Virus record (IMG/VR): IMGVR_UViG_3300021197_000412
Span: 1-27,386 of that record
From: a virus
Length of the DNA stretch: 27,386 nucleotides
Reading direction: 5' to 3' (one strand)
Shown: positions 2,757 through 24,863 of the stretch, piece after piece
Layout: each line of letters starts with the position of its first letter
Position numbering within the stretch: the stretch's first letter is position 1
Made by a program: the position numbers and the translations under genes
Notes under the pieces: model-generated
Told to the model about the DNA's origin: nothing
What the model saw: the letters and a program-made list of their open reading frames with translations, nothing else
Databases searched by the model: none

Positions 2757-3264
2757 TCCACAACCATCTTTTGATGCACCAATACCCGGTCAAGCTTTAG
2801 TAGCTGAACTAGGATCAAGACCTTGGCAGCAACCAGCCCAGTACAGTACTATTGAAGAGGCTGTTGACTTCTATATTGCAAAGATGTCCTCTGATGAGGC
2901 TGCTGTACAAATAGAAGATATATTAGAAATGGGTGTATCTGTAGCTGATCTAGCACATGTTATACAACTATCTAATGTAATGGAAGGTATTCACAGCATT
3001 GATGTAGGGGTAATGGCTACACCTGTACTTATAGAATTTATTATGCTTATAGGAGACAGTGCAAAGATAGATTATGAAACAGGTTTAGAAGATGAAAACA
3101 AAGCTATGAAAAAAGCACTTGTAAATAGAGCTATGAAACAGTTTAAAAAAGAGTCTGCTAAAAATACGTCAGAACCAGAGGAAGAAGTAGTAGATGAAGT
3201 TATTACAGGAACTGAGGAAGAAAAGATTAATCAGTTAACTGGTCTTATGGCAAGGAGAATATAA
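2743..3264 (+). CDS. Hypothetical late protein, mostly helical with acidic tail
   Basis: This is a 173-aa protein without a recognised family. Residues 1-30 are Pro/Gln/Ala-rich, the middle (about 35-120) looks helical, with a hydrophobic stretch near TPVLIEFIMLIGDS, and residues 135-160 are lysine-rich then glutamate-rich (SEPEEEVVDEV). Its start lies inside the end of the preceding gene, and its TAA shares a base with the next ATG (TAATG), so three genes are coupled in a row. Position between virion-type genes suggests a structural or assembly role. Confidence 0.7.
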   Translation: MALPNPQPSFDAPIPGQALVAELGSRPWQQPAQYSTIEEAVDFYIAKMSSDEAAVQIEDILEMGVSVADLAHVIQLSNVMEGIHSIDVGVMATPVLIEFIMLIGDSAKIDYETGLEDENKAMKKALVNRAMKQFKKESAKNTSEPEEEVVDEVITGTEEEKINQLTGLMARRI

Positions 3265-4598
3265 TGAGTTTTTTTAGAGGTGTTGTAAAAGGAGCAGCTA
3301 AAAGTGTTGATAAGAATATACAAGACCAGTTAAAATTTTTACGTGAGGAAACATCTAATGTAGCAAAAATTAGAGCTAATCGTGCTATAAGGGAACAGGA
3401 TAACTACCAAGATGCGTTTGATGAAAACTTAGCAGAAGTAAAAGATTTAAGTAGGAAAGTGGGAGGAACTGATCAGTTTCAATTTTTACTAGATAAGTAT
3501 GGTGTTGCTGAAGCAAAGGTAATGGCTCAACAACTCTATGATTTCTCACAAAAAGATCCAAATTTTAATATAGCAGAACAATTAAAAATAGAAAAAAGAG
3601 AAGGTCCAAGTGTAACAGCTATTCAGCTTGCAGAATTTATGACACCAAAAGCAAAAGTTCCCCCATCAGGTGGGTATAATATAGGTACTGGTATGACCCG
3701 AATGTTGGGTATTGATGCCGATGCTAAGGTTATAGAACAATCAGATAGACTTATAAAAGCTGCAGGAATACCTACAAACGAAACAAAATATACAAATAAT
3801 GTTCCTACTGCATTAGCAGGAAGAGGTGTTCAAAGTTGGAGAATGCTCCGTTCATCTGATGGAAGACAAGATTATAATGAGCTAAGAGAATTAGCAACTA
3901 CAAAATTAAATAATGGAGATAAAAAAGAAGCAGAAGCTATAATGGCGTATGCTGAACTTAGATTGCAGTCTAGTGATACAAGTCTTAAAACAAATACAGA
4001 TTTTTCAGATACTCAGTTTGCAAGGTATTTAACAACTCACGCTAACTATTTACAACAAGTAGTTCTTGGTTTGGACAAGTCTAGTCCTTATAGAATGTCA
4101 GAAACTGGAGTATCATATATTGATGGAAAAACGAATCAAGACCACGACAAAGAAATAAGAAGAGCAATAGGTGAATTAGCATATATAACTACTCAAGCAA
4201 AAAAAATGGGTATAAATAATGTGACAATTAGTAATTTGACTACTGAAGCATTAAATCAAAATAAAAAGTTAGTTTTGGTAAATGGAGAACTAGTGTTAGG
4301 CAGTGAAAATGCCCCTTTGTATGATGAAAATGTTTTTAAAGTTCCTAATGACAATGGTGGCGGTAATGGTGGCGGTAATGGTGGTGGTGTACAACTTATG
4401 GACTACAGCACTATGAATAGGCAGCAAAAAGAAGCAGAATTATTAAAGTTAGAAGAAAGATACCAATCAATAACCTCAAGAAAAGGTCAGACACAGTTTA
4501 ATACAACAAAAGATTTTCATCAAGCAGTCAAAAAAATATTAATAGATATTGACTATTTAAGAACACAGTTAAATATGCCACGTCTAAGTGGGGGTTAA
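3264..4598 (+). CDS. Internal-virion-type protein with Gly-Asn linker
   Basis: This is a 444-aa protein whose ATG overlaps the previous stop by one base. The first 100 residues are strongly charged and helix-forming. Residues 364-375 are three NGGG units, a flexible linker, leaving a C-terminal domain of about 70 residues with predicted helices (EAELLKLEERYQSI and AVKKILIDIDYLRTQL). No catalytic motif is visible. Its size, charge and position just before the 1112-aa gene resemble the medium-sized internal core proteins of T7-like phages (gp14/gp15 region); this is analogy by position, not by sequence. Confidence 0.7.
   Translation: MSFFRGVVKGAAKSVDKNIQDQLKFLREETSNVAKIRANRAIREQDNYQDAFDENLAEVKDLSRKVGGTDQFQFLLDKYGVAEAKVMAQQLYDFSQKDPNFNIAEQLKIEKREGPSVTAIQLAEFMTPKAKVPPSGGYNIGTGMTRMLGIDADAKVIEQSDRLIKAAGIPTNETKYTNNVPTALAGRGVQSWRMLRSSDGRQDYNELRELATTKLNNGDKKEAEAIMAYAELRLQSSDTSLKTNTDFSDTQFARYLTTHANYLQQVVLGLDKSSPYRMSETGVSYIDGKTNQDHDKEIRRAIGELAYITTQAKKMGINNVTISNLTTEALNQNKKLVLVNGELVLGSENAPLYDENVFKVPNDNGGGNGGGNGGGVQLMDYSTMNRQQKEAELLKLEERYQSITSRKGQTQFNTTKDFHQAVKKILIDIDYLRTQLNMPRLSGG
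4353..4388 (+). repeat. 12-bp tandem repeat coding for NGGG units
   Basis: AATGGTGGCGGT occurs twice exactly and a third time with one change (AATGGTGGTGGT), giving NGGG x3 inside the 444-aa protein. Near-identical DNA copies suggest recent slippage, so linker length may vary between related phages. Confidence 0.85.
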
Positions 4599-4601
4599 AA
4601 A

Positions 4602-7600
4602 ATGGTAACAAACTCTTATCATTTAAAAGATAAACTAAGTAAAGATGAACTCATTAATGACAGGGGTTTTCAAGTAGATGCATCTATGTTTTTAATAGAT
4701 AGAGGTGGTTATTCAGCTTCAGATCTTAGAACTAAAGAGGATGTATATGATAAATATATGGAACATTTTCGTTCTCAAAATGTAAATGAAGTTACTGCGT
4801 TAAAAGACTTAACATATGCCCAAGAAGCAGAGACAGAAGACAAAGAGCAGTTTGGTAGACTTATGGATACCTACGATAAAATGGATTCTGACTTTGGGTT
4901 TAAGGCAGCAGGAGATTATCTTGAAGGAATATTTACTGCACCATCTACATATGCTGGTGCATTTTCTTTTGGTACAGCAAAGGTTGGAGCACTTGCAGCA
5001 AACCAAGGAATAAAACTAGGTGTTCGTCAAGCATTAAGAACCGGAATAGGTTCTGCTGTTGTTGAGGGTATTGCTGGAGGTGCAACTGTTGCTGCTCAAG
5101 AAGGAACACGTGTAGAGACAGGAATAAAAGAAGAGATGGACCTAAAAAATATAGGTGTGGCTACAGCTTTATCTGCAGGAACAGGTGGTGCTTTAGGTGG
5201 GTTTACAGGGTATATGAGAGGAGTAAATAATCTAAAGGCTGATGAGATATTAAAGTCAACAACCAAGATTGTAGACGAAGCAACTAAAAAAGCTCACGCA
5301 AAAGCAACAACTAAAACATTTAAAAACAAAAAGACTGCTTCTACAGCAAAAACATTTCAAGAAGAATTACTAGCTAACTTAGATGCTGAAACAAAAAAAC
5401 TTGCTAAGTCTAAGAAAAAAGCATTAAGAGAAACTGTTCCAGAAGAGCTTGAAAAAGGTAAAAAACTACGTGAGGAGTTAAGTAAAGGAGATTTAGTTTT
5501 ATCTATTGGAGCAAAAGAAATACAAAATATTGCTGCTGCTGCATCAGAAGTGTTTCATAAAATAGGAGCACATCCTACTTTAAAAAACCCAGCAGATGAA
5601 CGCTTTACATCAAGAGTAGCAAGAGGATTAACATCTGGAGTCTTAGACGAAAACTCATTTGGTAAAATTTTAAATGATCACAATATAACTACAGAACAAC
5701 TTGGAGCATTATATGCTGCAGAACTTTCTTCTTATGGTCTAGGTCTTAGATCAGGTAGAATGATAAAAGACATTGGTAAAAAAGAAAACTACACAGAAAT
5801 TATAACCAGATTAAATGAAATAGATGAAGCTACCTATAATGTTGGCACTCTAACAACCAAGTCTAGAGAAGCATTAGATGATCTACAAGTTAAAGGTACG
5901 GGAGCTAAGATAGCTGGATTTTTTCAGCATATAAATAAAGCACGTATTGGTATGATGACAATACAACCTGCAACTACCATGAGAAACACAACAAACGGTT
6001 ATCTTAGAAACTATGTTTATATGATGGATAACTTTGGTGCATCTATGGTAGATTATGCAAAGGGCAACTTAGCACTATTAAGAAATCCTAATGATGTAAT
6101 GGTTAGAAAGCACTCAGAAGATCTTGTGCGTAGAGCAAGAGCACAAGCTAGAACAGGTTTTCAGTCGTTACATTTAAAAGATCTAAAAATGGGTATGGAA
6201 AGTGTAAATACAAAAGCATTGTTTCAATTACTTGGAGATAAAAAATTTGGTAACCAAGATGTAGTAAAAAAATTACTACGTCAAATGGCAGATATTGCAG
6301 ACGTAACCGATCAAAATGGGGGTTTAATTGGGGTTGCACGTAATCTAAACAAACTTAACACAATGTCTGATAATATGTTCAAGAGAGCTATATTTTCAAG
6401 AGAACTAGATAAAAGTCTTGGTCTAGAACCTATTGTTATTAAAAGATTTCAAACAGGTCCGGGTGGGGAACAAATAACTACAGATCTTGTTCTTGATAGT
6501 CTTGACAAAGTTTTGAGGACAGGTAACTTTAGTGCTATAGATGCAAAAAGATTATCAAATTCTATGACAGAAGCGTTTGACTTTACCTATCAAACAGGTA
6601 GTTTTAGAGGTAGAGAGGGAGGATTTAATAAACTTGCTGATGCATTTATTGATATATCATCTAATAACCTTTTGGCATCTTCAGTAATACCTTTTCCTAA
6701 GTATCTTGTAAATCAGTTTAGGTTTTTGTATGAACATACTCCTATTCTTGGTATTGTAAATTTTGGGGGGGTTTTAAATAAAGCAGGTGGAAAAACAGGA
6801 AAAAGACACTTGGTAGATTTATCTTCCGATACATTAGGAAAACAATTAGGTGGGCTTGCTATTCTTGGTACATTTATGGCAGCAAGAGCTAACTTTGGTG
6901 ATGAAACTACAGGTGCTTATGAATATTTAGATCCAACAAGTGGTGGAACATTTAATGCAGAAGCATTGATTGGTCCGTTTTCTGCACACGCTGCTATAGC
7001 AGATGTTCTCTATAGAATGAATCCCGGTGGGTGGCATGATAATGACAGAGTTGCAAATACTAAACCTTTTGATAGTAGACGTTTTGTCAAAGCTGTTACA
7101 GGTGGTAATATACGTGCAGGAACTTCTCTTGACATGATGGAGGGTATGATAGAAGTAGTAAATAATGGTATAAATGCTGGAAGTTCAGAGTTAGAAATAC
7201 AAGACAATTTAGCAAAGTGGCTTGGTAATTATTTTAATACTTTTACGGTAGGAGCAGGATTATTTAAAGATTTACAAGCTCAGATAGATCCTTCTGTAAG
7301 ACAGCTTCCAGACAACACAGATGTAAATATGTGGCATTACTTTTTTAAGCAAGCTGGAAGATCACTTCCATTTGTTGGTAAAGTTGAAGAAGGTGGAAGA
7401 GAGCAATTAGCATCTGCAACTAGACGTACTGGTATAAGAAAATTAAACCCTATATTAAAACAATTTTCTGGTTTAACACCCCAGCAAGAAAAAACTAATG
7501 TTGAAAGAGAACTTGCAAGATTACAATTTGATTATCAAGAGTTAAGTCCTAGACGTATAAAATTTGATAAGCCTCTTACTAATCAAGCTAGACAATTAGT

Positions 7601-7940
7601 TGGAGAAAGAGTAGAACAAAGATTAAATGCGTTTATCTCAAGTGATGACTATTTTTATATGAGTGATGTTAGAAAACGAGATGCGCTTAAAGACCAATTA
7701 GAAACTATACGAACAGAAGCCAGAGCAGAAATATTAAATCCTAACAATGTAGTAACTGATGAAGAAAGAGAAAGAAGGCATAGGGCTACATATCTTAACC
7801 TGTCAAGTAGGGATAGAACATTAATTAATGATACCTTTAGATTTCTACAAGAAAAAAAAGGTATAACAGATATTAAGACAATAGAAAATACAGAAAATTG
7901 GAAACTAGGATTAAGGTTAAAAGCTGATATGAAAAGATAG
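4602..7940 (+). CDS. Very large internal-virion or DNA-ejection-type protein
   Basis: This is an 1112-aa protein, the largest in the window, starting three bases after the previous stop behind a GGGGG-rich site. Residues about 105-205 are Gly/Ala-rich and mildly hydrophobic (for example SAGTGGALGGFTGYMRG), as in proteins that enter membranes. Residues about 225-290 are extremely lysine-rich. The C-terminal 150 residues are charged and helical. I see no transglycosylase or peptidase motif. It ends the rightward block and is followed by a terminator. A giant protein at the end of the core-protein cluster is where T7-like phages keep gp16, the DNA-ejection protein; by that analogy it is probably packaged in the head and ejected. 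A run of seven G at about 6767-6773 does not break the frame. Confidence 0.75.
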   Translation: MVTNSYHLKDKLSKDELINDRGFQVDASMFLIDRGGYSASDLRTKEDVYDKYMEHFRSQNVNEVTALKDLTYAQEAETEDKEQFGRLMDTYDKMDSDFGFKAAGDYLEGIFTAPSTYAGAFSFGTAKVGALAANQGIKLGVRQALRTGIGSAVVEGIAGGATVAAQEGTRVETGIKEEMDLKNIGVATALSAGTGGALGGFTGYMRGVNNLKADEILKSTTKIVDEATKKAHAKATTKTFKNKKTASTAKTFQEELLANLDAETKKLAKSKKKALRETVPEELEKGKKLREELSKGDLVLSIGAKEIQNIAAAASEVFHKIGAHPTLKNPADERFTSRVARGLTSGVLDENSFGKILNDHNITTEQLGALYAAELSSYGLGLRSGRMIKDIGKKENYTEIITRLNEIDEATYNVGTLTTKSREALDDLQVKGTGAKIAGFFQHINKARIGMMTIQPATTMRNTTNGYLRNYVYMMDNFGASMVDYAKGNLALLRNPNDVMVRKHSEDLVRRARAQARTGFQSLHLKDLKMGMESVNTKALFQLLGDKKFGNQDVVKKLLRQMADIADVTDQNGGLIGVARNLNKLNTMSDNMFKRAIFSRELDKSLGLEPIVIKRFQTGPGGEQITTDLVLDSLDKVLRTGNFSAIDAKRLSNSMTEAFDFTYQTGSFRGREGGFNKLADAFIDISSNNLLASSVIPFPKYLVNQFRFLYEHTPILGIVNFGGVLNKAGGKTGKRHLVDLSSDTLGKQLGGLAILGTFMAARANFGDETTGAYEYLDPTSGGTFNAEALIGPFSAHAAIADVLYRMNPGGWHDNDRVANTKPFDSRRFVKAVTGGNIRAGTSLDMMEGMIEVVNNGINAGSSELEIQDNLAKWLGNYFNTFTVGAGLFKDLQAQIDPSVRQLPDNTDVNMWHYFFKQAGRSLPFVGKVEEGGREQLASATRRTGIRKLNPILKQFSGLTPQQEKTNVERELARLQFDYQELSPRRIKFDKPLTNQARQLVGERVEQRLNAFISSDDYFYMSDVRKRDALKDQLETIRTEARAEILNPNNVVTDEERERRHRATYLNLSSRDRTLINDTFRFLQEKKGITDIKTIENTENWKLGLRLKADMKR

Positions 7941-22936: not shown

Positions 22937-23563
22937 TTACTTAATCCCTAACTTTTCTCTATGAGTTACCCATGTAATGGCTTGCACTTGATACGGTAGT
23001 ATAGTTGTACCATGTTTCTTGTTATATAGCTTGGCGGCCTTGATATAGCTTTCTGTTATCACCCTATACTGTCTTGGAGTCATGTTAGACCCATTGCTAC
23101 TTAATGCGTGACGTTCCCCAGTGTATATATTCTTGGCGTGTCCATCCACACAGACTGTATCTATATTACTTGTATGGTTATATATACACCTAAAGAAGGC
23201 CGTTGTCTTACGTCCACTTAGTATGGTTTCAACCTCTGTAATATTAGTCTTACCAATCTCTAGTATACTTATGGCTTTATCCTTATTGGCATTATAGGTG
23301 CATACCTTAACATCACTATATGCCTCATTATTCACATAGGCATAACACATATTCATGGTATCCATTACGTTACGTTCCCACTTGTTGTTTGGACTCAATG
23401 CGGCAAGTACCCCAACCACTTTGACCAGTGGCACTTTATGCGTCTTGGATATCTGTTGGCATTGCTTGTATGCCCTTGCATACCATGTTAAACCAAACTC
23501 AATATGCCAAGGCTTGGCGGCACGTAGCGTTTTTAGAATCTCTGTTGCTTTAACTGTTAGCAT
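22937..23563 (-). CDS. Conserved phage protein, glycosylase-like helical fold suspected
   Basis: This is a 208-aa protein of a family I recall from many phages and some actinobacteria without assigned function. Typical segments are FGLTWYARAYKQC near the N-terminus, GVLAALSPNNKWERNV (about 51-66), NKDKAISIL, ILSGRKTTAFF, then TVCVDGHAKNI (usually VDRHA) and the final LPYQVQAITWVT. The all-helical pattern with L.G.K..AF followed by VD.H resembles helix-hairpin-helix DNA glycosylases, so a DNA-base or DNA-binding function is possible but unproven. It has the same 20-base leader as the first gene of the operon. Confidence 0.7.
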   Translation of the reverse strand: MLTVKATEILKTLRAAKPWHIEFGLTWYARAYKQCQQISKTHKVPLVKVVGVLAALSPNNKWERNVMDTMNMCYAYVNNEAYSDVKVCTYNANKDKAISILEIGKTNITEVETILSGRKTTAFFRCIYNHTSNIDTVCVDGHAKNIYTGERHALSSNGSNMTPRQYRVITESYIKAAKLYNKKHGTTILPYQVQAITWVTHREKLGIK

Positions 23564-23635: not shown

Positions 23636-23941
23636 TTAAGAATCCTCAAATATTTCATCCTCACCTGCCATTTCCCTAGGCTCATTTGATACACAACATG
23701 GTGTACGTAGGTATAAGATTGGATAGAAACCTTCCTTCCACTCCCAAGTCATGGGCTGCTGTTCCCCATCATAATTAACAAAGTAATGGCCTTGATTCAA
23801 AACACTATGAATGAAGTCATCTTTTTGTAGTGTCACCCACGTGCCATCACTACCAATATCCGCTACTACTATTGAACCTTTAGTTCTTAAAAACTTTTTG
23901 GCTTTTGTAGTTGTATATACTTCCTGTACTTTAAAATCCAT
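23636..23941 (-). CDS. First gene of the leftward operon, 101-aa hypothetical protein
   Basis: This is a 101-aa protein with no recognised family. The N-terminal half looks like a small beta barrel (FLRTKGSIVVADIGSDGTWVTLQ), the centre is aromatic (GHYFVNYDGEQQPMTWEWKEGFYP), CC is near residue 82, and the tail is acidic (EDEIFEDS). GGAAGGGA precedes its ATG. It stands directly behind the folded leader and candidate early promoter, so it should be among the first proteins made; early first genes in phages often act on the host. Confidence 0.7.
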   Translation of the reverse strand: MDFKVQEVYTTTKAKKFLRTKGSIVVADIGSDGTWVTLQKDDFIHSVLNQGHYFVNYDGEQQPMTWEWKEGFYPILYLRTPCCVSNEPREMAGEDEIFEDS

Positions 23942-23965
23942 TTTATTTCCCTTCCATTGGTTAAA

Positions 23966-24039
23966 TTAATAGTGGGCTTCTCACTCCGCAATCACGTTGG
24001 CTTGAGTTGGCTCAAGACTGAATGAGTCACCACTATTAA
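23966..24039 (-). ncRNA. Folded 5' leader RNA of the leftward operon
   Basis: Three nested stems read on the - strand. P1 is 10 bp, TTAATAGTGG (24039-24030) with CCACTATTAA (23975-23966). P2 is 7 bp, CTCATTC (24026-24020) with GAGTGAG (23986-23980). P3 is 6 bp, CTTGAG-CCAA-CTCAAG (24016-24001). P2 contains one pair that is G-U only in the leftward RNA; in rightward RNA it would be C-A. The structure ends 25 bases before the first start codon. I cannot match it to a known riboswitch. A cis-regulatory or stability element is likely. Confidence 0.6.
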
Positions 24040-24063
24040 CTTATTTTTCTGCCCTGCACTTTC

Positions 24064-24169
24064 GGCCACTTGACATCATCTCATAGCACCCCAGCGTTGG
24101 CATTTCAAAACACATACTAGCCCAGCCCTTTTTCATTTGCGGGAGAACTGCCAATCCCTTAAGTTGGCC
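24064..24169 (-). other. Second foldable segment upstream of the leader
   Basis: This is a GC-richer segment within AT-rich DNA. In leftward RNA, GGCCAACTT (24169-24161) can pair with AAGTGGCC (24071-24064) with one bulge, and inside it TTGGCA (24154-24149) pairs with TGCCAA (24102-24097), giving two nested long-range helices. A 4-bp GGGA/TCCC hairpin is an alternative. It would be part of the same 5' leader if the promoter at 24213-24242 is used. Confidence 0.35.
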
Positions 24170-24212
24170 GTTTGGTAGCTATGATCAAATCCATGATCTA
24201 GAAGCTGTTTTT

Positions 24213-24242
24213 ATCGTAGTATTATTTTTATTCGGTAGTCAA
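24213..24242 (-). promoter_or_regulatory. Candidate early leftward promoter
   Basis: On the - strand, TTGACT (24242-24237), an 18-bp spacer and TACGAT (24218-24213): five and four of six matches to the -35 and -10 consensus. It would start RNA near 24206 and give a leader of about 265 bases before the first gene, containing both folded segments. Confidence 0.4.
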
Positions 24243-24781
24243 GTAGTTATTTTATTTTTTGGCCTCTTGATTGCTAGCCTTGCTTTTATTCGGATGATTC
24301 TGCGTTTAAACTGTTGAACTTCAAGTTCGGTTGTTTGGTTGTTTGTCTTTCCGATGCTTACAACTAAATCAGAGTATAAATGATAAGTAAAGAGTTAATT
24401 TAACTTTTTTTTAATATTTATTCTAAGTGATTGTTTTTAAAGGATTCTTTTATTTATTTAATTGTTTATTACTATGTTTTATTAGAGTGTTCATGGTTTG
24501 TTCTATTGGTATATATATAAGGTATCAAATTTTTAGGGGTATATGCTCCTACATTGTAAAACACGGGATATGTTAAAAATCGTATGTTTTTCAACAGGTT
24601 ATAAATGGCAACTGTTCAAGTAACAGTATCAAATATAATGTAACCTATTGTTTTTACTACATATTATATAATAAATGTTTTATTTAATGTGACTATGTAA
24701 AAAACATTTTAAATTCTGGGCTAGTTTTGACCTTATGATTGAAAAGATGCACGGTAGGCAGGGGTCACCCCCCCGTACTAC

Positions 24782-24810
24782 GTATACGTATACACAGATC
24801 TACACAGATC
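24782..24810. repeat. GTATAC doublet plus tandem 10-bp TACACAGATC repeat
   Basis: GTATACGTATAC (24782-24793) contains the palindrome family ACGTATACGT. It is followed by two exact tandem copies of TACACAGATC (24791-24800, 24801-24810). Just upstream is a GGGGTCACCCC-type hairpin (about 24761-24771). Short direct repeats next to palindromes in a non-coding region are typical of protein-binding sites such as origins or attachment sites. Confidence 0.6.
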
Positions 24811-24863
24811 AGTAAAAATCACTGTTAACCACTTTATATATACAACTGCCCTAACACTCCTTG

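Follow-up and report, generated by a model that had tools for sequence, protein, structure and literature searches.

A Structured Leader RNA with a CCAA-Capped Three-Way Junction at the Head of the Replication Operon of HMO-2011-Type Marine Phages

The leftward replication operon (∼16 kb) of the HMO-2011-type marine phage fragment analyzed here (the window, 27,386 nt in all) opens with a structured leader whose 3′ end forms a three-way junction with a CCAA loop; the isolates Roseobacter phages CRP-9 and CRP-207 and contigs L040, L076, and L238 have the same junction ahead of the gene that begins this operon. Comparison of the sequences supports the structure and the homology with high confidence, and this CCAA-junction RNA, which matches nothing in Rfam, looks like a new family of leader RNAs. 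The RNA is probably ∼240 nt long, the 74 nt of the original prediction being its 3′ domain only, and the best explanation overall, held with middling confidence, is a conserved two-domain leader at the start of the leftward replication operon in HMO-2011-type phages. The group is reported to be a dominant one with a broad distribution across the ocean (PMC9038755), and word searches of two papers on it return no mention of noncoding RNA. Coordinates of the features are collected in Table 1.

Table 1. Features of the leader and adjoining genes in the window
Feature	Coordinates	Strand	Details
Promoter-like site TTGACT-18-TACGAT	24213..24242	-	Consensus scan; predicted leader 5′ end at ∼24206
5′ domain	24129..24205	-	Hairpins 1 and 2; R3 match; 94.8% identity to L002
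5′ domain, hairpin 1	24198-24194/24187-24183	-	Loop UGGAUU
5′ domain, hairpin 2	24168-24164/24154-24150	-	Loop CUUAAGGGA
Middle of leader	24040..24128	-	Conserved; 91.0% identity to L002
3′ domain, three-way junction P1/P2/P3 (CCAA loop)/P4	23966..24039	-	Fold, L002 comparison, homologs, model R2
P1	24039-24030/23975-23966	-	10 bp
P2	24026-24020/23986-23980	-	7 bp, includes the G-U pair
P3	24016-24011/24006-24001	-	6 bp, loop CCAA
P4 hairpin CGU-GAUU-GCG	23987..23996 (helix 23996-23994/23989-23987)	-	3 bp; covaries with L002
Shine-Dalgarno-like GGAAGGG	23949..23955	-	Outside P1; 7 nt ahead of ATG at 23941
First leftward-operon ORF	23636..23941	-	101 aa; ATG at 23941
DUF7178 gene	22937..23563	-	PF23802, E = 1.2e-37; second gene in window

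The junction and its relatives

Read leftward, the 74-nt 3′ domain folds with a minimum free energy of −25.8 kcal/mol (z = −4.22), which none of 200 shuffled sequences equals, versus −22.6 (z = −2.75) for the rightward strand. Stems P1, P2, and P3 lie where the original prediction had placed them, and its argument for leftward polarity from a G-U pair in P2 gains from this strand difference and from the nearest relative, the IMG/VR contig L002, in which the leader fold is likewise better leftward (z = −2.59) than on the opposite strand (z = −0.62) and two further G-U pairs would be A-C on the other strand. The fold itself needs amending, however, since the stretch CCAACGTGATTGCG opposite P3, taken to be single stranded, holds the 3-bp helix P4, which covaries between the window and L002 and makes the structure a three-way junction instead of three nested stems. 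The P3 hairpin of the window (24016-24001) is CUUGAG-CCAA-CUCAAG.

Throughout the leader, L002 and the window are collinear (77% overall), and L002 alone matches exact DNA patterns of the window leader. The two are 91.3% identical over 24207-23966 and 87.8% identical across the 74 nt, compared with 62.5 to 83% in neighboring noncoding stretches. Nine differences fall within the 74 nt, and the five at paired positions all keep standard pairs: U-A becomes U-G in P2, A-U becomes G-U in P3, and in P4 (CAC-GUUU-GUG in L002) G-C becomes A-U by change on both sides and U-G becomes C-G. An alternative terminator-like hairpin is present in the leader of L002 only.

The other relatives were found partly by eye, among leaders lacking a different conserved RNA (element A, below). 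Across the seven members (window, L002, L040, L076, CRP-207, CRP-9, and L238) the CCAA loop on P3 is invariant, P3 pairs in 42 of 42 cells, and five of its six pairs change on both sides, giving a covariation score of 0.873 versus 0.353 for shuffled and at most 0.254 for slid alignments. This formal count covers P3 only, over seven distinct junction sequences, because MAFFT misaligned P2 when the window was included; P2 and P4 were therefore checked helix by helix, and P1, P2, and P4 were confirmed member by member. Pairing, whose loss in homologous leaders was to count against the original prediction, is thus kept in all six relatives, with compensatory changes. P2 encloses P3 and P4 in the window as well, with 7 bp in P2 and 3 bp in P4, and P1 and P2 together exceed 15 bp in L076 and L040. 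The window and L002 diverge most from the rest, with a shorter P2, a 3-bp P4, and GAUU and GUUU, respectively, in place of the CUUGA loop that caps P4 in L040, L076, CRP-9, CRP-207, and L238.

A covariance model (R2) built from L076, CRP-207, and CRP-9 only, leaving the window out, finds L040 at an E value of 6.1e-10, as scored with the short calibration on which E values of both R2 and the 5′-domain model R3 (below) rest. Its top match in the window, 23976-24030(-), has the right place and strand but only 13 bits and an E value of 0.37. Each of the phage records CRP-207, CRP-9, L040, and L076 contains a single match. A CCAA hairpin lying within a second helix occurs at nine distinct places in 1.9 Mb of loci, four of which are these leaders; the lone match of a looser hairpin pattern, in L111, was judged to be chance. 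No Rfam 15 family reaches its gathering threshold in the window, and permissive Rfam scans of the leader regions return chance-level matches only, in agreement with the earlier view that the layout corresponds to no known riboswitch.

The 5′ domain, the first genes, and the source phage

The leader does not stand alone as a compact 74-nt RNA, as had been proposed; conservation and a second structured domain reach ∼24206. L040, L107, and L076 have further RNA in common upstream of the junction region, and a model built only from these three (R3) has its best window match at 24129-24205(-) (22.6 bits, E value of 1.8e-4; the next is 0.2), so that the window too carries the linked upstream domain. 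An A-U pair of its hairpin 1 is U-A in L002. The promoter-like site lies just above this domain, and hence upstream of 23966, the point below which a transcription start was to count against the original prediction, and it points to a transcript of ∼240 nt up to 23966; L002 has the same TTGACT-18-TACGAT site with an equal spacer just above its 5′ domain, and a TTGAC box is upstream of the 5′ domain in L040, L107, L076, and L238. The middle of the window leader contains CAAGTGGCCGAAAGTGCA, which resembles CAAGGGCGGAAAGTGCA of L076 by eye only.

Linkage of the two domains is also seen independently of the window. The 5′-domain pattern alone, run over bacterial genome contigs, retrieved L238 and L240, which are one contig of 62,825 bases that had been assigned to a pair of unrelated marine MAGs. 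The 80-aa phage gene is present in L238, as is the 5′ domain (E value of 8e-21), after which comes the junction (E value of 1.6e-10 with R2); a locus fetched by its 5′ pattern thus has the 3′ junction downstream. Other genome matches of the pattern (L235-L237 and L239) score only 10.6 to 12.5 bits with R3 and were left out of the count, and a 5′-domain pattern match in L224 lies inside a coding gene and is attributed to chance. On the reverse strand of L107, upstream of the 80-aa gene, a different hairpin that lacks the CCAA junction comes after the 5′ domain, and a second TTGACT-led stretch lies upstream.

Nearly every member has a different gene immediately downstream of the leader: it is the 101-aa ORF in the window, DUF7178 in L002 and L040, a 50-aa ORF in L076, a 37-aa ORF in CRP-207, a 67-aa gene in CRP-9, and an unrelated 241-aa ORF in L238. 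This variety weakens the idea of a riboswitch or ligand site, and autoregulation through DUF7178 was set aside once L238 showed an unrelated first gene. The leader keeps its place, downstream of a promoter-like site and upstream of the first Shine-Dalgarno sequence, while the first gene changes, and since the RNA persists as its neighbors turn over, we infer from these arrangements that it acts in cis at the level of the whole operon. The original proposal of a structured leader of leftward polarity ahead of the first gene of the leftward operon is supported.

The window DNA polymerase is HMO-2011-like, with 72.9% identity to that of Roseobacter phage CRP-345 and 65.9% to that of Puniceispirillum phage HMO-2011 (coverage 99%). 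An 80-aa gene across the intergenic region from the leader is common to the HMO-2011-type group and, used as an anchor, yielded 80 loci at the same genomic place. The 101-aa ORF has no family above the cut-off, and a search for relatives found none; it is missing in the otherwise collinear L002, whose leader directly precedes DUF7178, and was gained or lost exactly between the two. Elsewhere in the window, three large rightward ORFs at 330-2528, 3264-4598, and 4602-7940(+) (732, 444, and 1,112 aa) have no Pfam or PHROG matches, and a noncoding block at 24753-24842 around GGGGTGACCCCTGCCTACCGTGCAT is also present in L002 and, more weakly, in many loci of the group.

Leaders of sister phages

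Most of the 80 loci, together with CRP-345, CRP-1, and HMO-2011, carry a different conserved RNA at the same place, element A, whose covariation over 58 sequences is very strong (0.357 versus 0.128 shuffled and at most 0.111 slid). It has near-invariant AGUUU and AAACG.C...G.GGAU motifs (for example, at L113:3005-3101, L116:2331-2427, and L117:2449-2545, in L046, L054, and L072, and in more than 50 further loci), 106 IMG/VR stretches contain an exact pattern of its core, and it has no Rfam match in the three isolates tested. After A comes element B, a long hairpin with a covarying P1 directly before the first Shine-Dalgarno sequence, that of gp01 (for example, L033:4036-4147:-, L046:1346-1457:-, and 36 more); its position is analogous to that of the 74-nt element, but it lacks the CCAA junction.

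The A-plus-B leaders of CRP-1, CRP-345, and HMO-2011 thus resemble the window leader in place and in plan, with a structured RNA upstream and a long hairpin after it, but share no sequence or model match with it. The element A model (R1) has no above-chance match in the window or L002, and GGCCGAAAGTGCAGGGCAG in the middle of the window leader, considered as a form of element A, was dropped for want of an R1 match. Among the 56 loci with enough flank, 43 have both A and gp01, 5 have gp01 without A, and 8, including L002, have neither; A leaders with enough flank precede the gp01 gene family, whereas gp01 has no match in the window. An operator-like palindrome, GTCCAACGTTGGAC, and variants of it lie upstream of element A in L113, L116, L046, and L058, and a palindrome of this type also precedes DUF7178 in L004.

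Possible roles of the leader

The leader probably controls the whole replication gene block. Processive antitermination of the kind carried out by HK022 put is the most likely mechanism, put forward tentatively and by analogy. The put RNA, a leader element located immediately downstream of an early promoter, needs no phage protein to modify RNA polymerase, and read-through of terminators proceeds via the zinc-binding domain of the β′ subunit (PMC9378689). By the same logic, the nascent leader would bind the transcribing RNA polymerase, and the leader-bound enzyme would read through the ∼16-kb operon. The likeness lies in a structured RNA below a promoter at the head of a phage operon and in presumed cis action, but put, of lambdoid phages, is ∼70 nt with two stem-loops in all, a description that the window leader does not fit, as it probably comprises ∼240 nt in two domains and branches at a three-way junction that bears a CCAA loop. 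That the RNA alone reprograms the host polymerase, as a new put-like class of antiterminator with a different architecture by which a dominant marine group drives its replication operon, is an unlikely extension of the analogy; sister phages have another, unrelated RNA in this position.

Other known systems fit less closely. The lambda-type nut site (boxA/boxB) is also a leader element of a long phage operon, but no boxA-like sequence is present in the leaders of the window, L002, L040, L076, CRP-9, or L238; CRP-207 (L227) has a boxA-like CGCTCTTAACAGA ∼252 bases before the CCAA loop, and boxA was dropped as a common feature, being found there only. The Rfam DUF2815 RNA (RF03084) gives a subthreshold match to the HMO-2011 leader hairpin only (24.5 bits against a cut-off of 41.2) and none to the window or the junction-bearing relatives. 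The leftward strand at 24207-23942 has no terminator-like site (a hairpin and T run before the first gene) and so lacks the intrinsic terminator of an attenuator or riboswitch.

The leader ends close to a Shine-Dalgarno sequence in every member, which also suits a role in translation or mRNA stability. A somewhat unlikely alternative is that the long P1-P2 helix adjacent to the Shine-Dalgarno sequence protects the operon mRNA from decay, or that RNase III cuts the helix to give a stable, well-translated 5′ end: irrespective of the first gene, every member has the helix ending within ∼10 to 15 nt of the start region, P1 and P2 together are long in L076 and L040, and the sister phages have an unrelated long hairpin, element B, exactly here. 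A simple stabilizer would need no invariant CCAA loop, no junction, and no second upstream domain with conserved loops, however. Counting against antitermination, DUF7178 is the first or second gene in many members (window, L002, L040, L076, L107, and CRP-207), so that a link to a protein may exist, and conserved loops and a three-way junction resemble binding sites. Yet a switch for the first genes, in which translation or early termination would be controlled through binding of the junction by an encoded protein such as DUF7178 or by a small molecule, is rather improbable, given the changing first gene, the 241-aa ORF that opens the operon in L238, a Shine-Dalgarno sequence that is unpaired in the modeled folds, the terminator-like hairpin confined to L002, and the lack of a riboswitch match in Rfam.

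Runs of at least six T's precede the junction in L076, CRP-207, CRP-9, and L238, as they would if the domains were two RNAs, one a small RNA that stops ahead of P1 and the other a short leader hairpin, and the L107 5′ domain does precede a different hairpin; the window and L002 lack such a run, however, and in several members it pairs in the outer helix of the junction, making this division quite improbable. That the inverted repeat arose by chance or works at the DNA level, with no function as RNA, is scarcely credible; the moderate z score of L002 alone might speak for this reading, which is contradicted by compensatory changes in P3, P2, and P4 over seven phages and by the asymmetric use of G-U pairs.

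The antitermination reading is directly testable in the cultured phages CRP-9 and CRP-207 and, if correct, would give phages a second means of controlling RNA polymerase with RNA alone; even as a stabilizer, the leader would be a covariation-supported RNA family absent from Rfam. The DUF7178 protein of the window has a confidently predicted fold (mean pLDDT of 92.5) and a VDGHA motif, and its best PDB matches are HhH-GPD 8-oxoguanine DNA glycosylases (AGOG 1xqp, TM score of 0.50, and OGG1, all with E values above 0.1), so it is possibly a phage DNA glycosylase-like protein.
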